From the NCBI RefSeq assembly GCF_006716185.1, contig NZ_VFOP01000001.1:2542001-2606000 (forward strand): a DNA stretch of 64,000 nucleotides, written 5' to 3'. Every line of letters begins with the position of its first letter. The stretch's first letter is position 1. The stretch comes from Ornithinicoccus hortensis (GTDB lineage: Bacteria > Actinomycetota > Actinomycetes > Actinomycetales > Dermatophilaceae). The notes beneath the pieces were generated by a model. That model was not told the origin of the DNA. It saw nothing but the letters and a program-made list of their open reading frames with translations, and made no database searches. Positions 30,755 to 48,661 of this stretch are shown here, in pieces. A program made the position numbers and the translations under genes.

Positions 30755-30833
30755 AGGACAAAGATTCGATCAGGGTCCCGGGGAAGGGCGTTGGTCGGAG
30801 TGGCAGGTGGGATGCCGGAGGGTGGTGAGGGGC

Positions 30834-32318
30834 ATGGCGGTACAGCCGCAGGAGGAAGCGCCGATGGTGCTGCCCGGGGCGTCTCAGCTCGCCGGGCCGT
30901 CTCAGATCTCTGGACCCACCCAGGCCGCCCCGGGGCAGGGTGCCGACCCACTGCCGCATCCGGTGGAGGCGATGGTGGCGGGGGTGGAGGCCGCGCTGGG
31001 TGCGGTGTCGCGTCAGGCGTGGGCGGGGTTGGAGGCACCAGCGGTGCGGGCGTTGTATGCCCGGTTGTCGCGGGTGGCCGAGCAGGTCTCGGCACACAAG
31101 ATGGCCGCCGCACGGGTGTTGGAAACGGCCGGCACGGCGAAGGCGGAGGGCGCGGCCTCGACGGGGTCGTTACTCGGGGCCGACTTCGGCGGGGACCGGC
31201 GCGAGGGCGATGAACTGGTCCGGCTCGGCGACACCCTGCAGCAAGCACGCGCCGATGCGACCGAGGACGCGTTCGGTGCCGGGCAGATCACCCGGGCCCA
31301 GGCCGGGGTGATCGGCAAGATCCTCAAGGATCTGCCTCAGGACGTGACCCCCGAGGAGCGGGAGGCGGCTGAGACCACCCTGCTCGGCCAGGCCGGGACG
31401 ATGAGCCTGCGGGACCTGCGGGCCAGGGGCGACCGGATCAGCGAGGTCTTTAGGGCCACCCCGGAGCAGACCGATGCCGATGAGGAACAGATCGTGGCCC
31501 GTCGGGAACGCCGCGCCCGGTCCCTGACCACGTTCTGGATGCGCGAGACCGGTGAGGGCACCTACCAGGGCGGCTTCACGATCCCCACCGTCCAGGGCGA
31601 GCTCCTCAAGACCATCCTGGACGCGGTCGCCTCACCCCGCCGCAACCACCTCCACACCACCACCCCCACCGGCGGCCCCGGCGGCTCTGATGGTCCGGGT
31701 GGTCCGGGTGATGACCGGTCCTACCCGCAGAAACTGGGGCAGGCGTTCTGCGCGTTGATCGAGCACACCCCGACCGACGGGTTCGTCCAGTCCGGTGGCT
31801 CGACGGCCGTGGTCGCGGTCTCCCTGTCCCAGGAGAAACTAGCCACCGGGACCGGGTGCGGCACGACCTCCACCGGCATCCGGTTGACCGCCGGACAGAT
31901 CCGCCGGTTGGCATGCACCCAACAGATCCTGCCCCAGGTCTTCGACGGCAAGAGCCTGCCGTTGGACCACGGGACCCTGCGCCGGTTGTTCAGCAAGCAC
32001 CAACGGATCGGGATCGGGCAACGCGACCAAGGATGCGCCATGCCCGGCTGTGACCGACCCCCGGGGTGGTGTGAGTTCCACCACGCCGGCAACCCCTGGT
32101 CCACCGGGGGCGAGACGAACCTGGACCAGGGCGTGATGCTCTGCGCGTTCCACCACCACCTGATCCACGACCAACACTGGCAAATCAGATTCCACCCCGG
32201 CGACGGGATCCCCGAATTCCGGGCCCCCGGAGGCACCACCTGGGCCCGCAACACCCGATACCGACCACCCCGAGATCTCGGGGTGGCACCCACCCCAGCC
32301 CTGCTCAACCACCCATAA
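30834..32318 (+). CDS. DUF222 / HNH endonuclease (13E12-like repeat family)
   Basis: A 494-aa protein. Residues 1-300 belong to DUF222 (helical region including LSRVAEQVSAHKMAAARVLE) and the C-terminus holds a complete HNH nuclease with zinc knuckle: CAMPGCDRPPGWCEFHHAG, then TNLDQGVMLCAFHHHLIHD. These genes occur in many copies in actinobacterial genomes and were named REP13E12 in mycobacteria. ATG 30834 follows a GAGGGGC site; GTG 30807 is an alternative. A 17-bp tandem repeat follows its stop. It may be a mobile or repeat-associated nuclease. Confidence 0.85.
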   Translation: MAVQPQEEAPMVLPGASQLAGPSQISGPTQAAPGQGADPLPHPVEAMVAGVEAALGAVSRQAWAGLEAPAVRALYARLSRVAEQVSAHKMAAARVLETAGTAKAEGAASTGSLLGADFGGDRREGDELVRLGDTLQQARADATEDAFGAGQITRAQAGVIGKILKDLPQDVTPEEREAAETTLLGQAGTMSLRDLRARGDRISEVFRATPEQTDADEEQIVARRERRARSLTTFWMRETGEGTYQGGFTIPTVQGELLKTILDAVASPRRNHLHTTTPTGGPGGSDGPGGPGDDRSYPQKLGQAFCALIEHTPTDGFVQSGGSTAVVAVSLSQEKLATGTGCGTTSTGIRLTAGQIRRLACTQQILPQVFDGKSLPLDHGTLRRLFSKHQRIGIGQRDQGCAMPGCDRPPGWCEFHHAGNPWSTGGETNLDQGVMLCAFHHHLIHDQHWQIRFHPGDGIPEFRAPGGTTWARNTRYRPPRDLGVAPTPALLNHP

Positions 32319-32400: not shown

Positions 32401-32489
32401 AGGTGGGTGTCCCGGGCGGGGCCGCACGCCTGGTGTCCGGGTACGGCACGTGCGCCACGAGTTCGTGTCCGGTAGTGCAGGCTGTTCCC

Positions 32490-33530
32490 ATGGAACGGAG
32501 CGGGAGCCGCGGGGCGCGACAGCGGCAGCGGCAGCAGCAGGGTGAGGACATCGTGCGGCACGCGGTGCGTGACTACGCGGCGAGGTTCCCGGAGCTGTCC
32601 GAGGCCACCGAGCGGTTCACGTCGCTGATCACCCGGATGCTGGACGATGCCGGCATCAACTACCTCAGCGTCACCGGGCGGACCAAGAGCGTCGCCTCGT
32701 TCGCGGGCAAGGCGGTGCGGCAGGAGGACGGGGTGCCGCTCTACCGGGACCCGCTGCGGGAGATCACCGACCAGATGGGTGTCCGGGTGATCACGTACCT
32801 GGCCACGGACGTCGCGGCGGTCGCCGAGCTGGTGTCGGCCGAGCTCACCGTCCTGGACGACCGGGACATGGGCCGGGAGACCGCGGCGGAGGGCCAGTGG
32901 GGCTACAACAGCCGACACATCCTGGTCTCCCTGGACCCCTCGGCTGAGCTGGCGCCCGAGGACGAGATGTTGCGCGGTCGCAGCCTGTCGTTGCAGGTCC
33001 GGACGATCCTGCAGCATGCTTGGGCAGAGTTCGAGCACGACATCCGCTACAAGGGACACCTGCCCGAGGAGCACGCGCCCGACCTGAACCGCAGGTTCAC
33101 CCTGGCGGCCGGCCTGCTGGAGCTGGCGGACCGGGAGTTCACCGCCATCCGGGACCGGATCCAGGAGACGCTGACCGACCAGCAGAGCGAGCAGGACCCC
33201 AGCGACCCGCGGATCGGGGCGAAGGAGCTGGCGACCTTCCTGGCTGGGCAGTTCGCCGACGCTGGCTGGTCCAAGACCGACCACTACTCGTGGATCTCGG
33301 GACTACTGCTCGAGCTCGGGATCACCTCGCTCGAGGAGCTGAGCGGGCTGCTGGCCTCCGTGGACAGTGCCGCGATCACCGACCGGATGGGCTACCGCTA
33401 TCCCCCGGGTGCCGTGCGCAGGCTGGACGATGCGCTGCTCGCGGTGTTCGGCGCCCACTACGTGGCGCTGCACGGCAACGACGACCGACGACCGCTGCTC
33501 CAGGAGCGGCTGGACAAGCTCATCGGCTGA
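32490..33530 (+). CDS. small alarmone synthetase (RelA/SpoT synthetase domain) with C-terminal extension
   Basis: A 346-aa (p)ppGpp synthetase-like protein without hydrolase, TGS or ACT domains. Synthetase landmarks: GRTKSVASFAGKAV (residues 63-76), REITDQMGVRVITY with the catalytic Asp 94, WGYNSRHILV, and SLQVRTILQHAWAEFEHDIRYK (167-188). Residues 230-346 form an extra domain (GWSKTDHYSWISGLLLELGI, then GYRYPPGAVRRLDDALLAVFG). It sits beside the HNH gene, outside the rel-apt locus. A housekeeping role is likely, but toxic alarmone synthetases share this architecture size. Confidence 0.8.
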   Translation: MERSGSRGARQRQRQQQGEDIVRHAVRDYAARFPELSEATERFTSLITRMLDDAGINYLSVTGRTKSVASFAGKAVRQEDGVPLYRDPLREITDQMGVRVITYLATDVAAVAELVSAELTVLDDRDMGRETAAEGQWGYNSRHILVSLDPSAELAPEDEMLRGRSLSLQVRTILQHAWAEFEHDIRYKGHLPEEHAPDLNRRFTLAAGLLELADREFTAIRDRIQETLTDQQSEQDPSDPRIGAKELATFLAGQFADAGWSKTDHYSWISGLLLELGITSLEELSGLLASVDSAAITDRMGYRYPPGAVRRLDDALLAVFGAHYVALHGNDDRRPLLQERLDKLIG

Positions 33531-33560
33531 CGCGGGCCACCTCACCGGCCGCGCCGCACG

Positions 33561-34232
33561 TCACCGGCCGCGCGGCAGCCGGTGCCGGTCGCGGAGCACC
33601 TGCTCGACGTCCGACCAACCCAGACCGCGGCTACGGAGCAGCACCAGCAGGTGGTAGACGAGGTCGGCCGCCTCGCCGGTGAGGTCGTCGTCCTCCTGGG
33701 CGACGGCGGCCAGGGCCGTCTCGACGCCCTCCTCCCCCACCTTCTGGGCGATCCGGCGGGTGCCCGAGTCGAACAGCTCGGTCGTGTAGGAACCGTTGGG
33801 GCGTTCGGTATGCCGAGCGGCGACGAGGGCGTCCAGCTCGGCGAGGAAGTGGGCCGACGGTGCGGCCGACGGGGCGGAAGTTGCCGGAGCGCCCGGCTCG
33901 TCGAAGCAGCTGTCGGCACCGGTGTGGCAGGTCGGGCCCGCGGGCTCGGCGAGGATCAGCACGGTGTCCCGGTCGCAGTCGAGGTGGACCGAGCGGACGG
34001 TGAGGGTGTGGCCGCTGGTCTCCCCCTTGACCCACCGGGTGCCGCGGCTGCGGCTGAAGAAGGTGGCCAAGCCCGATTCGAGGGTTTCCTGCAGGGCTGC
34101 CTGGTCCTGGTAGCCGACCATCAGGACCTGCCCGGTGGTGGCGTGCTGCACGATGGCGGGGACGAGTCCGTCCTGCTTGGCGAAGTCGACGTCCTGGACC
34201 GTCGGGCCGCCGGGGTTGTTGAAGGCGGTCAT
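33561..34232 (-). CDS. hisIE: HisIE: phosphoribosyl-AMP cyclohydrolase / phosphoribosyl-ATP pyrophosphatase fusion
   Basis: A 223-aa bifunctional enzyme for steps 2 and 3 of histidine synthesis. The N-terminal HisI domain has [26 protein letters not shown] and the zinc cysteines in [12 protein letters not shown]. The HisE domain starts near residue 128 with [13 protein letters not shown] and contains [14 protein letters not shown] and [13 protein letters not shown]. Actinobacteria normally carry separate hisI and hisE genes; the fusion is a feature of enterobacteria, Xanthomonas and others. It ends the operon; ATG overlaps the hisF stop. Confidence 0.95.
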
Positions 34233-35053
34233 GCGCGGGCTCCCTCGGACTCCTGGGCGGGGCCACCGAGCGAGGGCGCAGCGGGGCGCACCTCGACGCC
34301 CTCTGCGGCCAGGTACCGCTTGAGGTCGGGGATCGGGATGGCGCCGGAGTGGAAGACGCTGGCGGCGAGAGCGGCGTCGACGTCGGCGGTGGTGAAGACG
34401 TCGCGGAAGTGTTCCATCGCCCCGGCGCCACCGGAGGCGACGAGGGGCACCGCGCAGACCTGACGGATGCTGGCGAGCTGCTCCACGTCATACCCCTGAC
34501 GGACGCCGTCGCTACCCATGCAGTTGAGGACCACCTCGCCGGCACCGAGTTCCTGGACCCGCTGGACCCAGTCCTGCGTGGTGACCTCGAGGGCCTGGGT
34601 CTGGTCCGGGTTGCCGGTGAACTGCCGGATGCGCCACTGCCCGTCGTCGTCGCGCAGGCTGTCGACGCCCACCACGACACACTGGACGCCGAACTCGCGG
34701 GCCAGCTCGCGGACCAGTTCGGGACGCTGGGTGGCGGGGGTGTTGACGGAGACCTTGTCCGCCCCGGCGTGTAGGACCGCGCGGGCGTCCTCGACCGAGG
34801 AGATGCCGCCGGCGACGCAGAACGGGATGTCGATGACCTTGGCCACGCGGCGGACCCAGTCGGTGTCGACGCGTCGTCCCTGCGGGCTGGCCGTGATGTC
34901 GTAGAAGACCAGCTCGTCGGCACCCTCGTGGCGGTAGCGGGTGGCGAGTTCGACGATGTCGCCGACGTCGACGTGGTCGCGGAACCGGGTGCCCTTGACG
35001 ACGCGGCCGTCGCGGACGTCGAGGCAGGGGATGATCCGGCGGCCCAGGGTCAC
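34229..35053 (-). CDS. hisF: imidazole glycerol phosphate synthase, cyclase subunit
   Basis: A 274-aa TIM barrel that closes the imidazole ring together with HisH. It has [15 protein letters not shown] with catalytic Asp 11, [21 protein letters not shown] and [10 protein letters not shown]. The segment between barrel strands ([20 protein letters not shown]) matches the gamma-proteobacterial form; actinobacterial HisF usually reads DGTKAGFDL there. The C-terminus has 20 extra residues. The GTG start overlaps the hisA stop as GTGA. Confidence 0.96.
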
Positions 35054-35799
35054 GCGACCTCCTCCTCGGCCACGGCGTCGGTGACGGTCAGCCGGCCCTC
35101 GAAGAGCGCCTTGCCGAGCACCGCGCCGGCGCAGCCGACCTTGCGGCAGCTGCGGAGGTCGTGGACGTGGCGCATCCCGCCCGAGGCCTGGATCTGCAGG
35201 TCGGGGACGGCGTGGGTCAGGAAGGTGTAGAGGTTGATGTTGGGCCCGCTCAGCGTGCCGTCCCGGCCGATGTCGGTGCACAGCAGGTGCCGGAGACCGG
35301 CCTCGGAATAGGTGTGCAACATGGTGGGCAGGTCCTTCTCCGCGACCGAGGTCCACCCGGAGATCGGCAGCACCCAGGCGCCGTCCTCGCTGGCCCGGGT
35401 GTCGAGGGCGACGGTGATCCGGTCCGGGCCGAACCGCTCCAGCCAGGTGGCGACCTCCTCGGACTCGCGGACCGCCATCGACCCGACCACGACGCGGGAC
35501 GCCCCGGCGTCGAGGAGCCGTTGCACGTCGTCGGCGGTGCGCACTCCCCCGCCGGTCTGCACCTGCAGGCCGGTGCGTTCGACGATCTGCTCGAGCCGTT
35601 CGGCCAGCGTGTAGCCACCGGCGCGGGCGGCATCCAGATCGACCAGGTGCATCCAGCGGGCGCCGGCCCGGGCATACCCGTCGGCCACGGCGACCGGGTC
35701 GTCGGAGTAGCGCGTCTCCTTCTCGTAGTCGCCCTTGTGCAGCCGGACGACACGACCGTCCAGGACGTCGATGGCCGGGTAGACGGTGAACTCACTCAT
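35050..35799 (-). CDS. hisA: ProFAR isomerase HisA (proteobacterial type)
   Basis: A 249-aa isomerase of step 4. It has [14 protein letters not shown] with the first catalytic Asp near residue 9, [21 protein letters not shown] and [17 protein letters not shown] with the second catalytic Asp. Most actinobacteria use the dual HisA/TrpF enzyme PriA here; this sequence looks like the mono-functional HisA of Xanthomonas ([12 protein letters not shown] and ISGWT). It overlaps hisH by 8 nt and hisF by 4 nt. Confidence 0.95.
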
Positions 35800-36403
35800 C
35801 GGGAACCTCCGACACGAAGTTTGTCAGGAGACGGGCGCCGACGTCGGCTGAACGCTCCGGGTGGAACTGGGCGCCCCACCAGTTGCCCCGCCGGGCGACG
35901 GCGGTCCAGCGGCCGGCGTGGGTGGTCGCCGCCACGGTGTCCTCGGTGACCGGTGCGGCATAGCTGTGCACGAAGTAGGCCCGTGAACCGGCCAGTATGC
36001 CGTGCAGGCTCGGGTCCTCGCGGAGGACGTCCAGGGTGTTCCATCCCATGTGCGGGACCCGCTCGCCGGGGGTCGCGGGGATCGGCACGACCTGGCCGGT
36101 GAGCAGCCCCAGGCAGGGCGTGCCGCCGTCCTCGGCCGAGGACTCGAAGAGCAGCTGCATGCCCAGGCAGACCCCCAGCAGGGGCTGCTCCAGGCCACGG
36201 AGCACCTCGACCAGGTCGGCGTCGTGGAGGCGGCGCATGGCCGGACCCGCGGCGCCGACACCGGGCAGGATGACCCGGTCGGCCGCGGTGATCGTGGCCG
36301 CGTCCGCGGTGAGGGCGGAGCGCACGCCGAGCCGGTCCAGGGCATACCGGACCGAGCCGATGTTGGTGCCGCCGGAGTCGACCAGGGCGACGCTGGTGGT
36401 CAC
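35792..36403 (-). CDS. hisH: imidazole glycerol phosphate synthase, glutaminase subunit
   Basis: A 203-aa class-I glutamine amidotransferase that supplies ammonia to HisF. The nucleophile is in [15 protein letters not shown], and the His-Glu pair is in [13 protein letters not shown]. It starts at GTG 36403 in GTGA overlap with the hisB stop. The N-terminus reads [18 protein letters not shown], which resembles Xanthomonas more than actinobacterial HisH (which begins with VVLDYGSGN). Confidence 0.95.
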
Positions 36404-37491
36404 AGGACGCCCTTGGTGGAGGGCAGCTCGGCGCCCTCCACGCGCAGCGCCTGGCGCATCGCGCGGGCGACCGCCTTGAACCCGGACTCGATGACGTGGT
36501 GGGCGTTGTCGCCGGTCACGCTCAGGTGCAGGTTGAGGCGGGCGGACTCGCACAGCGACCGCCAGAAGTGCTCGACCATCTCGGTCGGGAAGTCCCCGAC
36601 CCGCTCGCGGTCGAAGGTGCTCTCGAACTTCAGGTAGGGCCGGCCGGAGAAGTCCAGCGCCGCCTGGGCGTGGGCCTCGTCCATCGGCAGGGTGAAGCCG
36701 TAGCGACCGATCCCCCGTTTGTCGCCGAGCGCCTGGTCGAGGGCCTGACCCAGGGCCAGGGCGACGTCCTCGATGGTGTGGTGCTCGTCGATGTGGAGGT
36801 CGCCGTCGCAGTGCACCTTCAGCGAGAACCCGCCGTGCTTGGCGAGCTGGTCGAGCATGTGGTCCAGGAAGCCGACGCCGGAGGACAGTTCGATCGTGCC
36901 GGGCTTGTCCAGGTCGACCTCGACCCGGATCTGGGTCTCGCTGGTGTCGCGCTGGACGGTGGCGATCCGGGGACGGTCGACGAGGCGGTGCGCGATCTCG
37001 GCCCAGTCCAGCGTGTCGGTCGTCTCCTCCGTGGCCCGGCTGGGGACCAGGTATGCCGTGAGGCCCAGGTTGGCGGCCAGCTGGGCGTCGGTCTCCCGGT
37101 CCCCGACGACGACGCTGCGGTCCCAGTCGATGGTGCGGTCCTTGAGCAGGTCGGTGAACATCGCGGTGCCCGGCTTGCGGGTGGGGGCGTTGTCCTCCGG
37201 GCGGGTGCCGTCGATCAGTTGCGCGCGGAAGGTGATGCCCTGGCTGGCCAGGATCTGCAGCAACAGCTCGTGCGGGCCGTCGAAGTCGGCCTGCGGGAAG
37301 CTGTCGGTGCCCAGGCCGTCCTGGTTGCTGACCAGCACGAAGTCCCACCCGGCGTCGCGCAGCCGCAGCAGCGCCGGGATGACGCCCTCGACCAGGCGCA
37401 GCTTGTCGTAGGCGTCGACCTGGAAGTCCGCCGGCTCCTCGATCAGGGTGCCGTCGCGGTCGACGAACAGGACGGGGCGGGCGATGCTCAT
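36400..37491 (-). CDS. hisB: bifunctional HisB: histidinol-phosphatase (HAD) / imidazoleglycerol-phosphate dehydratase
   Basis: A 363-aa fusion for steps 7 and 9. Residues 1-165 form a HAD phosphatase ([13 protein letters not shown] with nucleophile Asp 10, [19 protein letters not shown]). Residues 172-363 are the dehydratase with [19 protein letters not shown] and [11 protein letters not shown]. The zinc cluster of the E. coli phosphatase (Cys-x-His ... Cys-x-Cys) is replaced by [15 protein letters not shown], as I recall for Xanthomonas HisB. Actinobacteria almost always have stand-alone dehydratase HisB, so the fusion is a marker of foreign origin. Confidence 0.96.
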
Positions 37492-38594
37492 GGCTTCCTT
37501 TGGGTTGTCGGGGCGGGGGTGAGGTGAAGGGCGCGGGCGACCTCGTCGAGCTCGGCGTCGGTGCCCACGCTGACCCGCACGGCGTCCTCGACCTGGTGGC
37601 GCATGTCGCGGACCACGATGCCAGTCCCGGCGAGGGTCTCCAGCAGCGGCCCCGCGGCGCCCCGGGCCAGGACGAAGTTGGCCTCGGAGGCGTAGACCTG
37701 CTCGACCAGGTCGCTGCGGTCCAGGAGGTCGCGGAGCCGGTCACGGCCCGCGATGGTGGCGACGACCCGGGCCGCGGTGTCGGACAGGGCGGACGGCTCG
37801 AGCGCGGCCAGGGCCAGGCGGGACACGGGCTCGGGCACCGGGTAGGGCGCCTGCACCCGGCGGAGCACGGCGGCCAGGTCCGGGTGGCCGATGGCGACGC
37901 CGACCCGGGCACCGGCGAGGGCGTGCGCCTTGGACAGGGTGCGAAGCACGACCAGGTTCGGGTGGTCACCCAGCAGGGTGATCGCCGAGGGGCCGGAGGC
38001 GAACTCCTGGTAGGCCTCGTCGACCACGACGACCGCCGACCGGGCCAGGTCGCTCGCCAGCGCCCCGATCGTCGCCAGGGGGACGGTGCTGCCGGTGGGG
38101 TTGCCGGGGGTGGTCAGGAAGAGCACGCGGGAGCCGGTCTCGCGGACCGTCCGGGTCAGGGCGTTGGCGTCGACCTCGAACCGGTCGCCGAGGTCGCGCT
38201 GTGGCACGTCGTGCAGCGGCACCCCGTGCAACCGGGCGCTCACGGCATACATCCCGAAGGTGGGTGAGGAGACCACGACGCCGTCCCCGCCCGGCCGGCA
38301 GAGGGCGCGGACCAGCAGCTCGATGGCCTCGTCACTCCCCCGGCCGACGACCAGGTCCGCCGGGTCCACGCCGTATGCCGAGGCGAGCGCGCGCACCAAC
38401 GGTGCCGGTTGGGGGTCGGGATAGCGGCGCAGGAGGTCCTCGGGGTCGGCGTGGTTGGCCCGGGCCGCCTCGTTGGCGTTCAGCCAGATCCGGGCGGTGC
38501 CCGCCCAGCTGGTGCGCGCCGAGGAGTAGCCGGCGAAGTCGCGCAGGTCCTCGCGGACCAGCTCGCGCGGGAACGGGGTGGCGGTCGCGCTCAC
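37488..38594 (-). CDS. hisC: histidinol-phosphate aminotransferase
   Basis: A 368-aa PLP enzyme of step 8. It has [12 protein letters not shown] (substrate clamp), [11 protein letters not shown], the PLP-binding LKxx lysine in [15 protein letters not shown], and [12 protein letters not shown] 38594 overlaps the hisD stop; ATGA links it to hisB. The NANEAA-type start motif (LNANEA) is the proteobacterial form; actinobacterial HisC usually shows LNTNEN. Confidence 0.94.
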
Positions 38595-39892
38595 GAGGGT
38601 CTCCGGGCCAGTCGCCGGGTCACGGCCGCCTGGTGGCCGATCAGGCCCTCGGCGCCGGAGAGTTCCACGGCGGACGGGCCGACCTCGGCGAGGCCGTCGG
38701 GGGTCACCGACTGCACCGTCATGGCGATCTGGAAGCTGGCCACGGCCACCCCGCCGGTCCACCGGGCGGCGCCGGCGGTGGGCAGCACGTGGTTGGTGCC
38801 GCTGCAGTAGTCGCCGAGGGTCTCCGGGGCCCAGTCCCCCAGGAAGACCGAGCCGGCGCGTTCCACCCGGTCCACCCAGGACCCGGGGTCGCGCAGCGCC
38901 AGGATGAGGTGTTCGGGGGCGTAGTCGTTGCTGATCGTGAAGGCCTCTGCGAGGTCCTCGGTCACGACCAGCCGGCTGGAGGCCAGCGCCTTGCGGGCGA
39001 TCTCGGCGCGGGGCAGTTGGTCGACCTGCTCCTCGACCTGGTCGGCGACGGCGCGGGCCAGGGCGGCGTCGTCGGTGAGGAGCAGCACCTGGGAGTCGGG
39101 GCCGTGCTCGGCCTGGGACAGCAGGTCGGCGGCGACGAACTCGGGGTCGGCCCCGGAGTCGGCGATGACCAGCACCTCGGACGGCCCGGCCGGCAGGTCG
39201 ATGCCGGGCCCGCCCTCGGCGGTAGACACTTGGCGCTTGGCCTCGGTGACGTAGGCGTTGCCGGGGCCGAAGATCTTGTCGCAGCGCGGGACCGACTCGG
39301 TGCCGTAGGCCAGCGCGGCGATCGCCTGGGCCCCGCCGGCGACCACGATCGTGTCGATGCCGCACTCGGCGGCGGCGGCCAGGACGCTGGCGTTGGGGCG
39401 GCCGTCGCGACCCGGCGGGGTGCACAGCACCACCTCGGGGCAACCGGCCAGCTGGGCGGGGATGCCGAGCATCAGCGCGGTGGAGGGCAGCGGGGCGGTG
39501 CCGGCCGGGACGTAGAGCCCGACCCGGCGGATGGGGCGGACGACGCGGCGGCAGGTGACCCCGGGGGCCGTCTCGACGGCGTAGTCGGACTGCATCCCGG
39601 CTTCGTGGAAGGCCCGGATCCGGGTCGCGGCCGCGGTGATCGCGGACCGCAACGGGGCCGGGACCGTGGCGACCGCCTCGGCGATCGCGTCCGCGGGCAC
39701 CCGCAGCCAGGGCGGGGTGACCCCGTCGAACCGGGCGCCGAGCTCCGCCAGGGCCGCGTCGCCCCGGGTGCGGACGGCCTGCACGATGTCGGCTACCGCG
39801 GCGGTGACCTCGGGGCCGGCGCCGGCGGTGGCCCGGCGCAGCGTCTCGGCGCGGGTGGCGGGGTCGAGCTCGGACCAGGTGGTGACGTTCAC
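38591..39892 (-). CDS. hisD: histidinol dehydrogenase
   Basis: A 433-aa zinc enzyme that oxidises histidinol to histidine in two NAD-dependent steps. Key parts are [53 protein letters not shown] and [13 protein letters not shown]. The start is GTG 39892 overlapping the hisG stop as GTGA. It is the second structural gene, as in E. coli. Confidence 0.96.
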
Positions 39893-40797
39893 GGCAGCAT
39901 CCCCTCGACCGGGAGCACCATCAGGGTGTGGGCGCCGGCGCGCTTGAGGTCCTCCAGGCGTTGCCAGGAGACCGCGTTGTGGCACAGCACCTGGACCGAG
40001 ACCTCGTCGCGGCCGTCGACCTGGAGCACCGTGGGTTCGCCGCCCTCGGGGAGCTTGCCCAGCACCTCGGGCAGCACGTCGCGCCCGGCGCGCAGCATGA
40101 GCAGGCGGGTCTCCTTCAGGCGGAGGGCGCCGTCCATCCGGCGCAGCAGCATGTCGGCGATGTCGGCCCGGCCATCCTCCAGGGGGTGGGTCGGTCCGGC
40201 GATGACGGCCTCGGAGTGCAGCAGCGTCTCGACCGGCTTGAGGTTGTTGGCGGCCAGGGTGCCCCCGGTCGAGACCAGGTCGCAGATCAGGTCCGCCTGG
40301 CCCAGGCGCGGGGCGATCTCCACCGAGCCGGACAGGGTGACGATGTCGGCCTCGACTCCACGCTCGGACAGCCACCGGCCCAGCGTGTGCGGGTAGGAGG
40401 TGGCGATCCGCTTGCCGGCGAGCTGCTCGGCGCCGGCCCACCGCTCGTCGTCGTTGATGGCGATGTCGAGGCGGCAGGTGCCCCAGCCCAGCTGGCGCCA
40501 CTCCTCCAGGGCGCCGGGTGCCCCGCCTGCCTGTCGCCCGAGGTCGTACTCGACCACGACGTTGCGTCCGACGATGCCCAGGTCGCAGACGCCGTCGGCG
40601 ATCAGGCCGGGGATGTCGTCGTCGCGGACCAGGAGCAGGTCGACCGGCAGGGACTCGCCGTAGCAGAAGAGCTTGTCGCGGCTCTCCCGCCAGGTGAGAC
40701 CGCAGCTGGCGAGCAGGTCGCGGGCGGGGTCGGCCAGGCGGCCGGACTTCTGGATGGCGACCCGGAGGCGGTCGCGGGTGATGGCAGGCGGGGTCAT
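39889..40797 (-). CDS. hisG: ATP phosphoribosyltransferase, long form
   Basis: A 302-aa first enzyme of the pathway. [16 protein letters not shown] opens the catalytic domain, followed by [38 protein letters not shown] and [18 protein letters not shown]. The last 75 residues are the ACT-like regulatory domain that binds histidine, so it does not need HisZ. The QKSGRL and RVRDDDIPG-type motifs follow the gamma-proteobacterial long form. ATG 40797 lies 101 bp after the regulator gene. Confidence 0.96.
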
Positions 40798-40821
40798 GAG
40801 ACCTTCCGTGGGGCTGGTGGG

Positions 40822-40841
40822 CCCGGTCCTCGACGACCGGG
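40822..40841 (-). promoter_or_regulatory. hairpin in the leader between the regulator and hisG
   Basis: CCCGGTC pairs with GACCGGG around a 6-nt loop, 25 nt upstream of the hisG start. There is no T-tract, and no His-rich leader peptide was found, so an enterobacterial-type attenuator is not supported. It could slow ribosomes or protect mRNA ends. Confidence 0.3.
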
Positions 40842-40898
40842 CGGCGGTGGCTGGCGTGCCGGAGCCGTGGTGGCTCGGCGGTCTGGGGTCGACGCTGG

Positions 40899-41228
40899 TC
40901 AGCCGGTGGCCGGCTGGGCGCCGCCGGTATGCCGGGACAACGCCGCGCGGTAGCCGCCGGCCCCGTGCTCCCAGCAGCGGGCCACCCGACCGATGGTGGT
41001 CACGCTCACCCCGGTCTCCTCGTGGATCTGCCGGTAGGGGGTCCCGTGCGCCAGCAGCGGCACGACGGCCCAGCGGTCGGCCAGGGCCTCCAGCTCGGCG
41101 GGGGTGCACAGGTCGTCCAGGAAGGCCGACATCTCGGCCGGGTCGCTGATGGCGCTCAGCGCCTCGGCGAGGAACTCGCGGGTCCGGGCGGCCCACTCGG
41201 CCTCACCCAGGTGTTCCCGTCGCTTCAT
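40899..41228 (-). CDS. TrpR/YerC-YecD family regulator, probable HisR-type repressor
   Basis: A 109-aa helix-turn-helix protein of the TrpR superfamily: [19 protein letters not shown] followed by [19 protein letters not shown] and [16 protein letters not shown]. In Xanthomonadales and some Firmicutes a protein of this family is the histidine-responsive repressor of the his operon, encoded in front of hisG, as here. It probably binds near its own promoter in 41229-41318, where GTTAGCGTGATAGCGC lies on the minus strand, but no exact operator can be defined from sequence alone. Confidence 0.85.
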
Positions 41229-41318
41229 CTGCGTGGCTCTCCCGTGTCATGACGTAACAGTGCGCTATCACGCTAACACACGATGGGGCGTGGTCAGACA
41301 CGTGGCGGGCAGGCCAGC

Positions 41319-42713
41319 TCAGGTGAGCTCGAGCGGCTGGGCCAGCTCGACCCGCAGCGCCCGGACCACCTCGTCCTGCGGGACCGAGAACTGGTCGGCC
41401 CGGCGCAGGTCCTTGACGGTCACGGTCCCGGCCTCGACCTCCTGGGGGCCCAGGATCGCTACGAAGCGGATGCCGGCGCGGTCGGCATACTTCAGCTGTT
41501 TGCCGAGCTTGCCGCCGTCCAGCACCGACTCGGTGTTGATCCCGCCCTGGCGCAGCTCGGTGGCCAGGGCGAGGGTCTGCGGGAGCAGGTCCGGGTCCAT
41601 CTGCGGGACCAGCACCTGCACGGTCGACTCGGCGGCGTGCACCAGGCCGGCCTCGCGCAGCTGCCAGAACAACCGGCTCAGGCCGATCGAGATGCCGACC
41701 CCGGGGAGCCGGGACTTGGTGTACTGCCCGGCCAGGTCGTCATACCGCCCCCCGGAGCAGATCGACCCGATCTCGGGGTGCTCGTCCAGGGTGGTCTCGT
41801 AGACGGTGCCGGTGTAGTAGTCCAGCCCGCGGGCGATCGAGAAGTTCAGCCGGTAGTCCCCCTCCGGCACCCCGAGGGCGCGGACCAGGTCCAGCACGAC
41901 CTTGAGCTCGGCGGCACCCTCGGCCAGCGCGGCGGAGCCCGCCGAGCGGGCGACCACGTCGTCCAGCCGGGCCAGCGCGTCCTCGTGCGAGGTGGACCGG
42001 ACGGCCACGAAGTCCAGGACCTGCTCGACGGCGTCGGCCGACAGCCCGAACCCCTCACCGGTGAGGGTCGTGCGCAGGTAGTCCGGCCCGCGCTTGTCCA
42101 GCTTGTCCACCTCGCGCAGCACCCGGGCCTGCAGGTCGCCGTCGGCGATGCCCAGGTCCTCGAAGAAGCCGCGCATCAGCTTGCGGTTGTTCAGCTGGAT
42201 GGTGAACGGGCCGATCGCCAGGTCGGTGAAGACCTGGTGGATTACGGCGGGGAACTCCGCGTCGTGCCGGGGGCTGAGCTCGTCCTTGCCGATGATGTCG
42301 ATGTCGCACTGGTAGAACTCGCGGTAGCGGCCCCGCTGGGCGCGCTCGCCCCGGTAGACCCGCTGCATCTGGTAGCGGCGGAACGGGAAGGTCAGCTGGT
42401 GCTCGTGCTCGGCCACGTAGCGGGCCAGCGGCACGGTCAGGTCGAAGCGCAGCGCCATCTCCGGCAGGCCGGTGGTCTCCCCCGCGGCCGACTTCTCCAG
42501 CGCGCCGGTGGACTGCACGAAGTAGACCTGGCGCTCGGTCTCCCCGCCGGTCTTGGTCAGCAGGACCTCGGAGAGTTCGTATGCGGGGGTCTCGATCGGC
42601 AGGAACCCGAACCGTTCGTAGGCCGAGCGGATCACGTCCAGCATCCGCTGGAAGGCGATCTGCTCGGCGGGCAGCAGTTCGAGGACCCCGGAGGGTGTGC
42701 GCGGCGTGATCAC
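41319..42713 (-). CDS. hisS: histidyl-tRNA synthetase
   Basis: A 464-aa class-II synthetase. Motif 2 is in [20 protein letters not shown], the histidine-A motif in [15 protein letters not shown], and the anticodon-binding domain begins near residue 370. Its N-terminus ([20 protein letters not shown]) and [17 protein letters not shown] look very close to Xanthomonas HisS. The GTG start is preceded by TAGACT at a 7-nt spacing. It heads the his cluster in the position next to the cyclophilin gene and rel, which is the native hisS place in actinobacteria. Confidence 0.95.
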
Positions 42714-42720
42714 GTCGGCG

Positions 42721-42726
42721 AGTCTA
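42721..42726 (-). promoter_or_regulatory. -10 box of a leaderless promoter for hisS
   Basis: TAGACT with a 7-nt spacer to GTG 42713. It matches the host-type leaderless promoters of rlmC and rel, indicating that the cluster is expressed by local signals. Confidence 0.55.
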
Positions 42727-42905
42727 ACGAGCGCGAAAGGTGCCGCCGAGCGCCGGGGCGCGGGACCAGAACAACGCCGGAAGTTACCTCATCCCGATCG
42801 TGTCCAAACCGCAATCCGCCCGTGACCCGACCCCCGAGTCCGGCTGCCTACACTGGCGGCCGACCACCGTCCCCCAGGTCAGCGATGGCTGCCGGAAGGA
42901 GATCC

Positions 42906-43631
42906 ATGACCCTGCGGCCACGTCGCGTGATGCGGGTCGTCGCGGTCGCCGCGATCGCCCTCCTGGCCGGGTGCGCCTCCGTGGACGCCGAGGGTGGGGA
43001 CGAGACCTCCGACGGTCAGGTCTCGGCCCCCGTGGTGAACACCGGCGAGTGCGTCGACCCGCCCGCTCTCCCCTCGACGGTGCCGACCTTCGGCACCCAG
43101 CAGGCCCCCTCGGCGACGGAGGGGACGGTGCACGGGGCGGTGCTGCATACCTCCTGCGGGGACATCGAGCTCGAGCTCTTCGGGGACAAGGCCCCCGTGA
43201 CGGTCGCCTCCTTCGACTTCTTGGCCGGTGAGGGCTACTGGGACGCCAGCCCGTGCCACCGGTTGACCACCGCGGGCATCTTCGTGCTGCAGTGCGGGGA
43301 TCCGACGGGCACCGGGCGGGGCGGACCGGGCTACACCTTCGGGCTGGAGAACGCCCCGGAGGACGGCCGTTACCCGCGCGGGACCGTGGCGATGGCCAGG
43401 AGCAACGACCCGAACAGCAACGGGGGGCAGTTCTTCATCGTCTTCGACGACACGGAACTGCCCGTGGCCGGGGGTGGCTACACCATCTTCGGTAGGGTCA
43501 CCAGTGGAATGGACGTCATCGACCACATCGCCGAGCAGGGCGTGGACGGTGGAGGAGCCGATGGGTTGCCCGTGCAGCCGATCAGCATCCTCTCGGTCGA
43601 GATCACCGAGGAGAAGGCACCGGATTCGTGA
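42906..43631 (+). CDS. lipoprotein peptidyl-prolyl cis-trans isomerase (cyclophilin)
   Basis: A 241-aa secreted cyclophilin. The signal peptide ends in the lipobox LLAGC (Cys 23), so it is tethered to the membrane. The PPIase domain starts near residue 75 and has PVTVASFDFL, NSNGGQFFIVF and GYTIFGRVTSGMDVI. The position of the catalytic Arg is CHRLTTAGIFVLQCGDP, as in bacterial PpiB. GGAGAT lies before ATG. A probable -10 (TACACT) is at 42849. DUF349 follows with a GTGA overlap. Confidence 0.9.
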   Translation: MTLRPRRVMRVVAVAAIALLAGCASVDAEGGDETSDGQVSAPVVNTGECVDPPALPSTVPTFGTQQAPSATEGTVHGAVLHTSCGDIELELFGDKAPVTVASFDFLAGEGYWDASPCHRLTTAGIFVLQCGDPTGTGRGGPGYTFGLENAPEDGRYPRGTVAMARSNDPNSNGGQFFIVFDDTELPVAGGGYTIFGRVTSGMDVIDHIAEQGVDGGGADGLPVQPISILSVEITEEKAPDS

Positions 43632-45004
43632 GTGAACAGCCCAAACCGCAGCCCAGGCCCCAGGCCCCGTCACCGGCGGCACTGGCCGGACGCAAGGCCG
43701 CGGTGCACCCTGTCGCACCCCCGGCCCCGGCGGCCGAACCGGTAAGCAACTCGGCCGAGTTCGGCCGCGTCGCCGAGGACGGCACCGTGTACGTGCGCAC
43801 CGATGACGGGGAACGTGCGGTCGGCTCCTACCCCGGGCAGCCGCCCGAGGAGGCCCTGGCCTACTTCGCGCGCAAGTACGACGAGCTCGCGGCCAACGCC
43901 GTGCTGCTGGAGCAGCGGGTCACCCAGACCGACCTGTCGGCGCACGACGCCCGGGAGTCCCTGGCCAAGCTGCGCGAGCAGATCGGCGAGGCCAACGTGG
44001 TCGGCGACCTGCCGGCGCTGGCCGCGCTGGTCGGCCGGATCGAGACCGCGGTGAGCGCCAAGCAGGCCGTCGAGACGCAGGCCCGGGCCGCCGCACGGGC
44101 CGAGGCCGGGGCGGCGCGCGAGGCCCTGGTGGTCGAGGCGGAGAAGCTGGCGGCCCAGGACCCGGCCAAGGTGCAGTGGAAGGCCGCCAGCACCCGGATG
44201 CGGGCGATGCTGGATGAGTGGAAGGGCATGCAGCGCTCCGGACCCCGCCTGGAGAAGGACGTGGAGAACGCCCTCTGGCAGCGGTTCAGCGGGGCGCGCA
44301 GCAGCTTCGACCGGACCCGGAAGACGTGGTTCAGCCAGCTCGACGAGGAGCATGCCGAGGCCAAGCGGGTCAAGCAGCGGCTGGTCGAGGAGGCCGAGAA
44401 GCTGGCCACCAGCAAGGACTGGGGACCGACCGCGGGGGCCTTCAAGCGGCTCATGCAGGACTGGCGGCGCGCCGGCCGCGCCCAGCGGGGCGACGACGAC
44501 GCGCTCTGGGAACGTTTCAAGACCGCCCAAGACTCCTTCTTCGCCGCCAAAGACGAGGTGGTGGCCGAGGAGAACAAGGCGTTCACCGCCAACCTGGAGG
44601 TCAAGGAGGCGCTGCTGGTCGAGGCCGAGGCCCTGCTGCCGGTCGACGCGGGCAACCTGGACGCGGCGAAGAACGCGCTGCGGGGCATCCAGGACCGGTG
44701 GGACGCGGCGGGCAAGGTGCCCCGCGAGGCGATGTCCCGCGTGGAGGGCCGGCTGCGCAAGGTCGAGCAGGCGGTGCGCGACGTCGAGGACCAGAAGTGG
44801 CAGTCCTCCAACCCCGAGGTCTCCGCCCGCGCCCAGTCGATGGTCGACCAGCTCGAGCGCGCCGTGCAGGGGCTGGAGCAGGACCTGGAGAGCGCCCGGG
44901 CCACCGGTGACGAGCGCAAGATCGCGGAGGCGGAGCAGGCCCTCGAGGCCCGTCGCACCTGGCTGGAGTCCGCCCGCGGCGGCCTGGCCGAGTTCGGCGG
45001 CTGA
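43628..45004 (+). CDS. DUF349 coiled-coil protein
   Basis: A 458-aa protein with at least four DUF349 helical repeats: for example VQWKAASTRMRAMLDEWKGM, then WGPTAGAFKRLMQDWRRAGR and LDAAKNALRGIQDRWDAAGK. Repeat helices carry regularly spaced Trp residues and alternating charges, typical of an elongated coiled protein. The first 60 residues are Pro/Ala-rich. It overlaps the isomerase gene by GTGA and is 4 nt before the aminopeptidase. The cellular role is not known. Confidence 0.8.
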   Translation: MSEQPKPQPRPQAPSPAALAGRKAAVHPVAPPAPAAEPVSNSAEFGRVAEDGTVYVRTDDGERAVGSYPGQPPEEALAYFARKYDELAANAVLLEQRVTQTDLSAHDARESLAKLREQIGEANVVGDLPALAALVGRIETAVSAKQAVETQARAAARAEAGAAREALVVEAEKLAAQDPAKVQWKAASTRMRAMLDEWKGMQRSGPRLEKDVENALWQRFSGARSSFDRTRKTWFSQLDEEHAEAKRVKQRLVEEAEKLATSKDWGPTAGAFKRLMQDWRRAGRAQRGDDDALWERFKTAQDSFFAAKDEVVAEENKAFTANLEVKEALLVEAEALLPVDAGNLDAAKNALRGIQDRWDAAGKVPREAMSRVEGRLRKVEQAVRDVEDQKWQSSNPEVSARAQSMVDQLERAVQGLEQDLESARATGDERKIAEAEQALEARRTWLESARGGLAEFGG

Positions 45005-45008
45005 GCCG

Positions 45009-46325
45009 GTGGTGCTGCAACGCTTCGACGTCGACGACGTCGCCACCGGGCTGTGCGCCTACCTGGACGCCTCCCCCTCCCCGTTCCACGCCGTCCGAGC
45101 CGCGGCCGAGCTGCTGGCCGGGCACGGATTCACCGAGGTGTCGGAGACCGATCCCACCCCGATGGAGCCGGGCCGCTACCTCACCGTGCGTGGGGGCTCG
45201 CTGGTGGCGTGGTCCTCGGAGTTCGCCGACGGTCCGGCGACGCCGTTCCGGGTGGTCGGGGCGCACACCGACTCCCCCAACCTGCGGGTCAAGCCGCAGC
45301 CCGACGGCACCAGCGCCGGCTGGCAGACCCTCGGGGTCGAGGTGTACGGCGGCCCGCTGCTCAACTCCTGGCTGGACCGTGACCTCGGGCTGTCCGGCCG
45401 TGTCGCGCTCCGGGACGGGGACGGCATACGCGAGCAGTTGGTCCGGGTGGACGACCCGGTGCTGCGGGTCTCCCAGCTGGCGGTCCACCTGGACCGCACG
45501 GTGAACACCGAGGGTCTGCGGCTCAACGCGCAACAGCACCTGGCCCCGCACTGGGGCCTGGGGACCGAGCCGGGCGACTTCCGCGGCTACCTGGCCGAGC
45601 TGGTCGGGGCCCGGTCCGCCGACGTGCTGGCCTGGGACGTGATGACGCACGACCTGACCCCGGCCCGTCGGATCGGGCGGGACGCCGACCTGGTCGCCTC
45701 GGCCCGGCTGGACAACCAGGCCACCTGCTACGCGGGCATCCGGGCCCTGGTGGACGCCGTGGAGCACCACGACGGCCCGGCGGTGGTGCCGGTGCTCGTG
45801 CTGTTCGACCACGAGGAGGTGGGCAGCACCTCCGAGCGGGGGGCGCAGTCCGGCTACCTCCCGGCGACCCTGGAGCGGATCGTGCTGGCGGCCGGCGGCG
45901 GCCGAGAGGACTACCACCGGGCGCTGGCCGGGTCGGTGGTCGCCTCCGGCGACATGGCGCACGCCACGCACCCGAACTACGCCGACCGGCACGAGCCGAC
46001 GCACCGGATCCGGATGAACGGCGGGCCGGTGCTCAAGGTGAACGCCCAGTTGCGCTACGCCACGGACTCCCGCGGCGCCGCCGCCTTCACCCAGGCCTGC
46101 CAGCGGGCGGGGGTCCCGGTGCAGACGTTCGTCTCGCGGACCGACCTGCCGTGCGGCTCGACCGTCGGGCCCGTCACGTCGGCGCTGACCGGGGCGACCA
46201 CGGTCGACTTCGGTGCGCCGACCCTGTCGATGCACTCCACCAGGGAACTGGCCGGCGTCGCCGACCAGGCGATGTATGCCGCGGCGCTGGCCGCCTTCCT
46301 GTCCCCGCCCTCGGCACGCGGCTAG
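45009..46325 (+). CDS. M18 family zinc aminopeptidase
   Basis: A 438-aa cytosolic metallo-aminopeptidase (aspartyl aminopeptidase family). Metal ligands can be seen in VVGAHTDSPNLRVK, ASARLDNQATCYAG, LFDHEEVGSTSERGA and SMHSTRELAGVAD. The GTG at 45009 or 45012 begins the frame 4 nt after the DUF349 stop. It faces rel tail-to-tail with an 8-bp gap. Confidence 0.9.
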   Translation: MVLQRFDVDDVATGLCAYLDASPSPFHAVRAAAELLAGHGFTEVSETDPTPMEPGRYLTVRGGSLVAWSSEFADGPATPFRVVGAHTDSPNLRVKPQPDGTSAGWQTLGVEVYGGPLLNSWLDRDLGLSGRVALRDGDGIREQLVRVDDPVLRVSQLAVHLDRTVNTEGLRLNAQQHLAPHWGLGTEPGDFRGYLAELVGARSADVLAWDVMTHDLTPARRIGRDADLVASARLDNQATCYAGIRALVDAVEHHDGPAVVPVLVLFDHEEVGSTSERGAQSGYLPATLERIVLAAGGGREDYHRALAGSVVASGDMAHATHPNYADRHEPTHRIRMNGGPVLKVNAQLRYATDSRGAAAFTQACQRAGVPVQTFVSRTDLPCGSTVGPVTSALTGATTVDFGAPTLSMHSTRELAGVADQAMYAAALAAFLSPPSARG

Positions 46326-46333
46326 GAGACCAA

Positions 46334-48655
46334 CTACGAGGCGTTGCGGCCTCGGCGCTCCGGGTCCGAGCTGGTCTCGGTGATCCGGTAGGCGTCCAGC
46401 ACGGCGTTGACCCGGCGCACGCCGCGGATGACGGACTCCAGGTGGCTGGGGTCGGCCATCTCGAAGGTGAACCGGGACAGCGCGACCCGGTCCCGGCTGG
46501 TCTGCACGCTGGCCGACAGGATGTTGACGTGGTGCTCGGTGAGCGCGCGGGTCACGTCGGAGAGCAGCCCGGGGCGGTCCAGCGCCTCCACCTGCAGCTG
46601 CACCAGGAAGACGCTGGACTCGGTGGGCGCCCACGCGACCGGGATGATCCGCTCGGGGTAGCGCTGCAGGCCCTCGACGTTGTTGCAGTCGGTGCGGTGC
46701 ACCGACACCCCGTTGCCGGTCGTGACGAAGCCCATGATCGGGTCGCCGGGCACCGGGGTGCAGCACTTGGCCAGCTTGACCCACACGTCGTCCGCCCCGA
46801 CCACGGTGACACCAGGGTCGACCGACTGCTGCTGCGGGCGGGCCCGCCGCGGGGTGGTCGCCTCGGCCAGGTCCTCGGTGGCCGCGTCCTCGCCGCCGAC
46901 GGTGGCGACCAGTTGCTTGACCACGTGCTCGGGCGAGACATGGCCCTCGCCGACCGCGGCATACAGCGCGTCGATGCTGTTGTGCCGGAGGTCGGAGGCG
47001 ACGGCCACCAGGGTCTCGTGGGTCATCAGCCGCTGCAGCGGGAGGTTCTGCTTGCGCATCGCCTTGGCGATGAGCTCCTTGCCGGACTCGATGGCCTCCT
47101 CGCGGCGCTCCTTGGAGAACCACTGGCGGATCTTGTTGCGGGCGCGGGCGCTGGTGACGAAGCCCAGCCAGTCCCGGCTGGGGCCGGCGCTGTCGGACTT
47201 GGAGGTCAGGATCTCCACCACGTCGCCGTTGACCAGCTTGCTGTCCAGCGGGACCAGCTTGCCGTTGACCCGTCCCCCGACGCAGTGGTGGCCCACCTCG
47301 GTGTGCACGGCATACGCGAAGTCGACCGGCGTGGCCCCCGACGGGAGCGCCATGACGTCCCCGCCCGGGGTGAAGACGTAGACCTCCGCGGCGCTGATCT
47401 CGAAGCGCAGCGACTCCAGGAACTCCCCGGGGTCGGAGGTCTCCCGCTGCCAGTCCAGCAGCTGGCGCAGCCACTCCATGCCCTCCATCGGGCCGGTGCC
47501 GCCGTCGGCGCCCGTGGTGATCTTGCCGCCGCTGGGACCGTCCTCCTTGTACTTCCAGTGCGCGGCGACGCCGTACTCGGCCCGCCGGTGCATCTGGTGG
47601 GTCCGGATCTGGATCTCGACCGGCTTGCCGTCGGGGCCGATGACCGTCGTGTGCAACGACTGGTACATGTTGAACTTCGGCATCGCGATGTAGTCCTTGA
47701 ACCGCCCCGGCACCGGGTTCCACCGGGCGTGCAGCGCCCCCAGCACCGCGTAGCAGTCCTGCACCGTGTCGACCAGCACGCGCACCGCGATCAGGTCGTA
47801 GATCTGCTCGAAGTCGCGGCCCCGCACGATCATCTTCTGGTAGACCGAGTAGTAGTGCTTGGGCCGGCCGGTGACCACCGCCTTGATCTTGGAGGACTTC
47901 AGGTCGGCCGAGATCTGCTGACGCACCTTGGCCAGGTACTCCTCGCGCGCCGGGGCGCGCTGGGCCACCATCCGGACGATCTCGTCGTACACCTTGGGGT
48001 AGAGCTGGGCGAAGGACAGGTCCTCCAGCTCCCACTTGATGGTGTTCATCCCCAGCCGGTGCGCCAGCGGGGCGTAGATCTCCAGGGTCTCGGCCGCCTT
48101 GCGGGCCGCGGACTCGGCCGAGACGTAGCGCCAGGTCCGGGCGTTGTGCAGCCGGTCGGCCAGCTTGATCACCAGCACCCGGATGTCCCGCGACATGGCC
48201 ACGATCATCTTCCGCACGGTCTCGGACTGGGCGGCCTCGCCGTACTTGACCTTGTCCAGCTTGGTCACCCCGTCGACCAGCATGGCGATCTCTTCGCCGA
48301 AGTCCTTGGTCAGGTCCTCGAGGGTGTATGCCGTGTCCTCCACCGTGTCGTGCAGCAGCGCCGCGGCGATGGTCGAGGGGGTCATCCCGAGCTCGGCCAG
48401 GATGGTGGAGACGGCCAGCGGGTGGGTGATGTAGGCGTCGCCGCTCTTGCGCAGCTGGCCGCGGTGCGCCTTCTCGGCCACCGTGTAGGCGCGCTCGATC
48501 AGTGACAGGTCCGCCTTGGGGTGGGTGGCCTTGACGGCGCGCAGCAGCGGCTCCAGCACCGGGTTGACCCCGGGGCGGGCCCCTCCCAGCCGGGCCAGTC
48601 GCGCGCGCACACCCGTGCCCTGGGAGGAGGTCGGGGAGACGCCGTCCTCACTCAT
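46334..48655 (-). CDS. rel: bifunctional (p)ppGpp synthetase/hydrolase Rel
   Basis: A 773-aa long RelA/SpoT homologue. The HD hydrolase shows [17 protein letters not shown] and [17 protein letters not shown], the synthetase shows [13 protein letters not shown] and [24 protein letters not shown], then a TGS domain ([24 protein letters not shown]) and a C-terminal ACT domain. Both activities look intact. ATG 48655 lies 6 nt after TAGAAT. apt lies immediately upstream on the same strand. A second synthetase-only homologue is at 32490-33530. Confidence 0.97.
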
Positions 48656-48661
48656 AGGGGG

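Follow-up and report, generated by a model that had tools for sequence, protein, structure and literature searches.

A histidine block of Lysobacterales origin as the probable cause of a putatively TrpF-only PriA in Ornithinicoccus hortensis and its relatives

How does an actinobacterium come to carry a compact histidine operon of gammaproteobacterial appearance, and what becomes of a native two-job enzyme when such an operon takes over one of the jobs? These questions are raised by a 64,000-nucleotide stretch of Ornithinicoccus hortensis DNA (hereafter the window), which covers positions 2542001-2606000 of a genome assembled as one contig of 3,935,242 bases and in which ten genes, hisS-hisR-hisG-hisD-hisC-hisB-hisH-hisA-hisF-hisIE, all lie on the minus strand at 33561-42713. 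A preliminary description, made from the letters of the window, had taken this block for an import of Xanthomonadales-like origin that may have replaced the native hisS in place. Very probably, a block from Lysobacterales replaced the scattered native his genes together with hisS, and the native isomerase PriA then became a TrpF-only enzyme. The second half of this account had been missed: a second priA, for which a search had been proposed, is found outside the window (G000:C1:2234051-2234764), and judging from its sequence and place it is the native PriA, left at a ruined his locus and altered (hereafter PriA2).

The enzymes themselves have recently been described. PMC13055916 (2026), in its available text, reports HisA together with a divergent PriA ("SubTrpF2") in all Ornithinimicrobiaceae, TrpF being absent, and complementation of Escherichia coli with O. 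murale genes, in which HisA rescues only a hisA mutant and PriA only a trpF mutant. These are the same genes in the same lineage as those considered here. In the view proposed in that paper, a duplication of hisA within the lineage gave rise to priA, and the gene neighbourhood is called previously unreported; the available text names horizontal transfer for other subfamilies only, whereas here hisA appears to be one of ten genes that were imported together, and the neighbourhood is what is left of the family's own his locus. The import would thus supply the cause of a biochemical finding in place of the proposed duplication, and wholesale import is the better cause of the two. No published account of it was found in a literature search that reached few subscription journals.

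Origin and spread of the block

Carriers were defined as the genomes of the family (Dermatophilaceae) with a fused HisB above cut-off, and 186 family genomes were searched. All 31 genomes of the genus group Ornithinimicrobium/Serinicoccus and both genomes of another genus are carriers, and none of the other 153 is; 52 further family genomes have weaker matches only. Among 396 genomes drawn across the phylum a single one, the window's own, has a fused HisB above cut-off. HisS follows the same division: 29 of the 31 genus genomes score 384-403 bits and the two from the other genus 378-379, whereas none of the rest exceeds 349; the remaining two genus genomes (G113, G128) have weaker or fragmentary HisS matches only. 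No second HisS match above about 325 bits is present among the matches listed. The ten-gene arrangement, with its fusions, is therefore not ancestral in the family; had it been so, this would have been one of the two circumstances named beforehand as speaking against an import. Contamination at binning or assembly, for which no supporting point was found, is practically out of the question: the block lies near native genes in a single-contig genome of 100% completeness and 0.11% contamination, and the fused HisB recurs in 31/31 genus genomes, several of them single-contig. Its GC content (70-76%) and GC content at third codon positions (GC3, 92-98%) are similar to those of the window (GC 71.9%) and of the nearby rel (GC3 97.8%), so that its composition is host-like, as had been noted before.

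Where does the block come from? Relatives were sought by a pattern-based search of one genome per species over 84,980 species, and what follows holds among the matches listed. The closest HisB proteins are those of Ornithinimicrobium and Serinicoccus (64-70% identity), followed by Lysobacterales (59-66%). No other full-length match exceeds 56%; these come from Woeseiaceae, Enterobacterales, Pasteurellaceae and a small number of further groups. Outside the carriers, the order hisS-hisR-hisGDCBHAF-IE is seen only in Lysobacterales, at four loci in which hisS is followed by some 2 to 4 kb before the next of these genes. A fifth Lysobacterales contig begins at hisC. HisS of the block is 68-71% identical to that of four Lysobacterales and 43-46% identical to six native HisS of the family.

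Gene trees, made with 27 non-carrier loci from among the 80 loci listed and with 12 of the 20 carrier loci after rows below 45 bits had been dropped, point to the same source. In eight of the ten single-gene trees (HisS, HisG, HisD, HisC, HisB, HisH, HisA and HisF) the block groups with Lysobacterales at a support of 86-100, and not with the family's own proteins. Two trees were made by a careful method. In the HisA tree, which included 14 of the 33 PriA2 rows, the imported proteins group with Lysobacterales (100/99), and PriA2 with native PriA (100/100). The ten-gene concatenation was built from the window, 10 of the 20 carrier loci and the two rows available for the second genus. In it the carriers of both genera form one clade (100/100) nested inside Lysobacterales; the one Lysobacterales row that falls outside (100/99) has only six of the ten genes. 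The block is, as its trees place it, foreign and of Lysobacterales origin, in agreement with the origin first proposed for it.

Some features of the trees weigh against this origin. All trees other than those two were made by a quick method without bootstrap, including those whose support for carriers with Lysobacterales is 100 for HisG, 99 for HisS, 95 for HisC, 92 for HisD, 91 for HisB and 86 for HisH and for HisF (from whose set eight PriA rows had been removed); one Lysobacterales row, the fifth, falls outside the group in the HisC and HisF trees. HisIE of the carriers stands weakly among gammaproteobacterial-type sequences, and in the HisR tree, whose set held Lysobacterales and one Woeseiaceae with no native actinobacterial row, Woeseiaceae is nearer the carriers (84); neither tree singles out Lysobacterales. 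The HisS tree has a plasmid and E. coli outgroup on very long branches, and little can be read from its rooting in either direction. Finally, donor sampling amounts to five Lysobacterales loci and one Woeseiaceae locus, so few that the donor is placed no further than Lysobacterales as a whole.

Transfer of histidine operons between phyla has a precedent. According to the available part of PMC1963479, his operons bearing hisNB passed from Gammaproteobacteria to Campylobacter and Bacteroidetes, and the HisNB fusion is held to be gammaproteobacterial in origin and was present in none of 36 histidine-making Actinobacteria surveyed. As in those cases, a whole his operon with the HisNB fusion would have moved between phyla here; unlike them as far as that part describes them, the recipient is actinobacterial, hisS, a regulator and probably an operator are included, and scattered native genes have been lost. 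A single block would thus have carried an essential pathway in its entirety across phyla, along with an aminoacyl-tRNA synthetase and probably a regulatory switch.

The old histidine loci and the PriA that remained

In all eight relatives read, the native locus has the order hisD-hisC-hisB-orf218-hisH-priA-sseB, and glnE precedes hisD in four of them, not being found in the other four stretches. At the priA locus of the carriers there is no match to hisD, hisC, hisB or hisH in 33/33 cases, each of these being matched in 8/8 native loci. The other genes of the locus are still there: orf218, priA and sseB are found in all 33, and glnE precedes orf218 in 32, the 33rd being a short contig that begins at orf218 and whose earlier part is unseen. 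In the window's genome only 9 bp separate the end of the glnE frame from orf218, which overlaps priA by 4 bp. For the conserved orf218 (L120:8899-9555), which lies between hisB and hisH in relatives and stayed beside priA after the loss of hisDCB and hisH, the copy of the window's genome matches neither a Pfam nor an NCBIfam model.

A second native region shows a similar scar. In a relative it reads pnuC-hisE-hisG-PH-domain gene, with hisF further on and hisI beside trpE upstream of trpC; hisE, hisG, hisI and trpE have no match in the five syntenic carrier loci read (5/5), and the pnuC and PH-domain frames of the window's genome are 9 bp apart. No native hisF is present in the genus on the PF00977 match list. 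Apart from the imported hisA and hisF, this list contains one more gene per genome (priA), fragments from two genomes and a small number of matches at or below 24 bits. For hisD, hisC, the hisB dehydratase, hisH, hisG, hisE and hisI the loss was judged at the native loci and not genome-wide, which limits the case for a complete replacement. HisN is matched in every family genome, below cut-off in 33/33 carriers and above it in 124 of the 153 others; this fits a relaxed constraint after the phosphatase half of HisB arrived, and is not proof of it.

Why did priA stay? No trpF (PF00697) is matched in 31/31 genus genomes, a control being positive in 14/14, and a native PriA with both functions would have been indispensable as the sole TrpF of the cell. 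That the family's native PriA is bifunctional is assumed from the family model, and this assumption counts against the account given here.

PriA2 has changed greatly where it stands. Against the PriA model TIGR01919 that of the window's genome scores 208.4 bits, below the cut-off of 306.45, and none of the 33 carriers exceeds this cut-off, which 147 of the 153 other family genomes do; of the six that do not, three have no match and three weak matches only. The altered PriA is thus found in all 33 genomes with a fused HisB and in none of the 153 without it. In a comparison of 13 genus and 8 native rows, PriA identity is 47.1% between carriers and natives, 80.7% among natives and 61.4% among genus carriers; for glnA at the same locus, with four native rows, the corresponding values are 75.6%, 80.3% and 86.6%.

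The residues concerned are informative. The residues that bind ProFAR (phosphoribosylformimino-5-aminoimidazole carboxamide ribotide), namely R85, T105, W145 and T170, are changed in 33/33 carriers and invariant in 38/38 native PriA, positions having been assigned by motif with numbering taken from papers. T170 is always replaced by Ala, and R85 and W145 by several different residues. The catalytic D11 and D175, and also D130, are kept in all 33; D171 is Ser in the two carriers of the other genus, and loop 1 is shorter by 5 to 7 residues in the seven carriers displayed. The Arg19-to-Gln change listed for SubTrpF2 in PMC13055916, as available, is of another kind: position 19 is Gln in the carriers and in 38/38 native family PriA, and the change is therefore older than the specialisation and not specific to carriers. 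Thus R85, T105, W145, T170 and loop 1 separate the two kinds of PriA and position 19 does not. PriA2 would be a TrpF-only enzyme in this lineage, a prediction from its residues and by analogy with O. murale, for which the activity has been shown.

The alternative proposed in the literature is that hisA was duplicated within the family, one copy diverging into a TrpF-only PriA that was recruited to a new locus. It would account for the presence of hisA and PriA2 together in every genome of the lineage searched and for the strong divergence of PriA2. The block hisA (35050-35799, minus strand), however, is of the monofunctional type (TIGR00007, 241.0 bits against a cut-off of 229; 167 bits on the PriA model, far below its 306) and nested in Lysobacterales, whereas PriA2 groups with native PriA and shares its locus, which makes the two orthologous. 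Forcing PriA2 and the HisA of the lineage into one clade costs 104.7 log-likelihood units (approximately unbiased (AU) test, p-AU 2.7e-9), and the locus of PriA2 is the family's his locus minus hisD, hisC, hisB and hisH in 33/33 carriers. The AU test and synteny together lead us to reject the duplication, whose chance of being right is minute.

Under import of the block from Lysobacterales, the events may be pictured as follows. An ancestor of Ornithinimicrobium/Serinicoccus and one further genus would have acquired hisS-hisR-hisGDCBHAF-IE from a member of the Lysobacterales (Gammaproteobacteria), probably along with the HisR operator, and the block would have settled near the native hisS. The duplicated native genes would then have been lost from separate places (hisD/hisC/hisB/hisH; hisE/hisG; hisF; hisI; hisS), and PriA, relieved of the histidine reaction by the imported HisA, would have lost its ProFAR-binding residues to become TrpF-only. 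That import came before specialisation, and may have caused it, is suggested by the co-occurrence of fused HisB and altered PriA.

In Corynebacterium the imported genes are reportedly a trp operon. SubHisA of that genus (Noda-Garcia 2013, via the available text of PMC13055916) is a case in which horizontal transfer frees PriA of one reaction and specialisation follows; it would be the mirror image of the present one, PriA being HisA-only there and TrpF-only here after import of a his block. SubTrpF of Actinomyces, as described in the accessible part of PMC5404923, rescues trpF but not hisA mutants and has lost the Trp of loop 5 as well as the Arg at the second phosphate site. PriA2 is like it in its putative TrpF-only type and in the lost Trp and Arg; gene loss was the driving force in Actinomyces, whereas here it would be replacement, with histidine synthesis kept. 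The lineage thus amounts to a natural experiment whose probable trigger can be named. With 33 descendant genomes, relatives that keep the ancestral PriA, and scars that are still visible, the change of a two-job enzyme after losing one job can be tested residue by residue.

Insertion site, operator and number of transfers

Did the block replace hisS in place? Native hisS lies near a cyclophilin gene in 6/6 relatives read, with roughly 1 kb between them, room for one gene. Beside the block, a cyclophilin gene (42885-43631, plus strand; PF00160) and rel (46334-48655, minus strand; HD_4, RelA_SpoT, TGS and ACT domains) form a native flank, so that the actinobacterial hisS surroundings described at first are indeed present. 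The cyclophilin gene lies beyond hisS, as in natives, in the window and in 7 of the 20 carrier loci read in the genus group; in the remaining 13 (L232, L235, L237, L239-L244, L247-L250) it stands between hisS and hisR. The position of the block supports replacement at the native hisS site. The other side is that the stretches read around the block in the other genus (two genomes) contain no match to rel or to the cyclophilin gene. The place of the cyclophilin gene in those 13 loci, and that of the block in the other genus, indicate that the site has since been rearranged.

The space between hisS and hisR bears on whether there was one transfer. The four Lysobacterales loci have a large gene there (L005:2123-4135, with homologous frames in L008, L009 and L046), which in L005 is an aromatic amino acid lyase (PF00221); in the other genus an unrelated frame lies there, oppositely oriented. 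Across nine loci that were compared (four from Lysobacterales, three from the genus and both from the other genus), no gene is common to the donor and carrier gaps. Since the large gene of the donors has no relative in those carrier gaps, hisS and the rest could have come separately, hisS alone or earlier and the operon hisR-hisGDCBHAF-IE in another transfer, and the cyclophilin gene between them at 13 of 20 loci adds to this. Two transfers are nevertheless unlikely: hisS is within about 5 kb of hisR in 23/23 carrier loci read (the window, 20 genus loci and two from the other genus), as it is in 4/4 Lysobacterales, and the HisS tree has the same grouping as those of the operon genes.

Each of the two genera might also have acquired the block in a transfer of its own, the donors being different Lysobacterales. 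In a free search HisA leaves the two carrier groups unjoined, they are not shown joined for HisB, HisG, HisH and HisF, and the block lies elsewhere in the second genus. Against these, the two genera are joined in the ten-gene tree and in those of HisS, HisD and HisC (96-99), HisIE (93) and HisR (87), HisA is compatible with joined groups (p-AU 0.51), and the scar at the priA locus is identical in both, which leaves independent acquisition even less likely than two transfers. A single origin for the two genera is thus suggested by the ten-gene tree and the shared scar; the neighbour-gene tree has no outgroup, and the sister status of the second genus is not readable from it.

What else travelled with the block? 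The TrpR-family protein HisR, first gene of the his operon, is of the YerC/YecD type (40899-41228, minus strand; TIGR02531, 64 bits against a cut-off of 42; PF01371, 88 bits). It scores 25.8 bits on the TrpR model itself, below its 67, and is the sole PF01371 match in the whole genome. In the available text of PMC9413887, HisR of this family comes first in the his operon with a palindrome upstream, the proteobacterial motif being TGTAnTArnnnnyTnTTACA; the only actinobacterial HisR listed there are those of Coriobacteriales and Eggerthellales, whose motif differs. The earlier statement that Actinobacteria normally have no TrpR-like gene was therefore too strong. This lineage, unlike those two orders, has a predicted site of proteobacterial type. 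A palindrome 5' of hisR occurs in five donor-side loci and is by eye close to the published motif, as the arrangement with hisR first also agrees with that regulon. Because the consensus was read off donor sites (four of them), donor scores are no test and carrier scores are. In 23/23 carrier upstreams the best match is 12-17 of 18 to this consensus, equalled by 0-5 of 200 shuffles, these being first-order Markov samples and not exact dinucleotide shuffles. The predicted operator of the window (41253-41279, minus strand; located by an alignment by eye with Lysobacterales, Woeseiaceae and other carriers) is a weak copy, scoring 12/18 in a shifted register with 3/200 shuffles as good; the shifted register recurs in L230 and L246, that is, in 3/23 carriers. 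A donor-like site in carriers suggests that the regulator and its predicted site probably moved and were kept together.

Gene content, tryptophan supply and neighbours

An NCBIfam profile names all ten proteins of the block, each above its curated cut-off, and the fused HisB, fused HisIE, long HisG and TrpR-family regulator of the preliminary description are all confirmed in this way. From the distal end, hisIE (33561-34232) encodes fused PRA-CH (phosphoribosyl-AMP cyclohydrolase) and PRA-PH (phosphoribosyl-ATP pyrophosphohydrolase), with NF002747 at 264.8 against 187 bits and Pfam PF01502 and PF01503. It is followed by hisF (34229-35053; TIGR00735), hisA, hisH (35792-36403; TIGR01855), hisB (36400-37491), hisC (37488-38594; TIGR01141), hisD (38591-39892; TIGR00069) and hisG (39889-40797; TIGR00070 and TIGR03455), the last of the long form with a C-terminal domain. 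HisB is a fused histidinol-phosphatase and imidazoleglycerol-phosphate dehydratase (HisNB; NF003937, 525 against 443 bits; TIGR01261 above cut-off). The hisS gene, of the Lysobacterales type (41319-42713; TIGR00442, 392.5 against 287), starts with GTG, as do hisF, hisH, hisC and hisD; five start codons of block genes were chosen in this analysis. The eight structural genes, on one strand as had been seen, overlap at 7/7 junctions, six by 4 bp and hisA/hisH by 8 bp, and gaps of 101 bp (hisG-hisR) and 90 bp (hisR-hisS) follow. An RNA leader or T-box at the locus was ruled out, as 33000-49000 has no Rfam match above gathering score.

If PriA2 serves tryptophan synthesis, where does the anthranilate come from? 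TrpC (PF00218) is found in 30/31 genus genomes, the miss being an 84% complete draft, and trpC, trpB and trpA are adjacent in the window's genome. Native trpE of a relative scores 555.9 bits on TIGR00564, and none of the 31 genus genomes exceeds the cut-off of 517.7. The genus thus has no canonical TrpE, which leaves the reason for keeping TrpF incomplete and is a point on the opposing side. The trpE-less region of the window's genome is at L260:8117-9144 (G000:C1 2335616-2336643). Two candidate chorismate enzymes are encoded in this genome (L276:784-2979 and L296:1235-3220). One is a fused PabAB, the best match to the trpE model there, above the PabB cut-off (TIGR00553, 340.5 against 328.4); the other is a chorismate-binding protein of 661 aa with a C-terminal amidotransferase part, whose best model, PRK13566, is far from reaching its cut-off. 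We take the 661-aa protein to resemble PhzE. Tentatively, and as a possibility rather than a probability, the import may have rewired two pathways: PriA would have been freed to become TrpF-only, clearance of hisI would have taken the adjoining trpE, and the lineage, with TrpF, trpC, trpB and trpA, would draw anthranilate from another chorismate enzyme (for example the fused PabAB or the PhzE-like protein) or from outside the cell.

Adjoining the hisIE end of the operon, on the opposite strand, a second protein with a RelA_SpoT domain is encoded (32403-33530, plus strand; 375 aa, PF04607). Next to it lies a gene for a DUF222 protein (30807-32318, plus strand; PF02720), a member of a family that is repeated in many actinobacteria.

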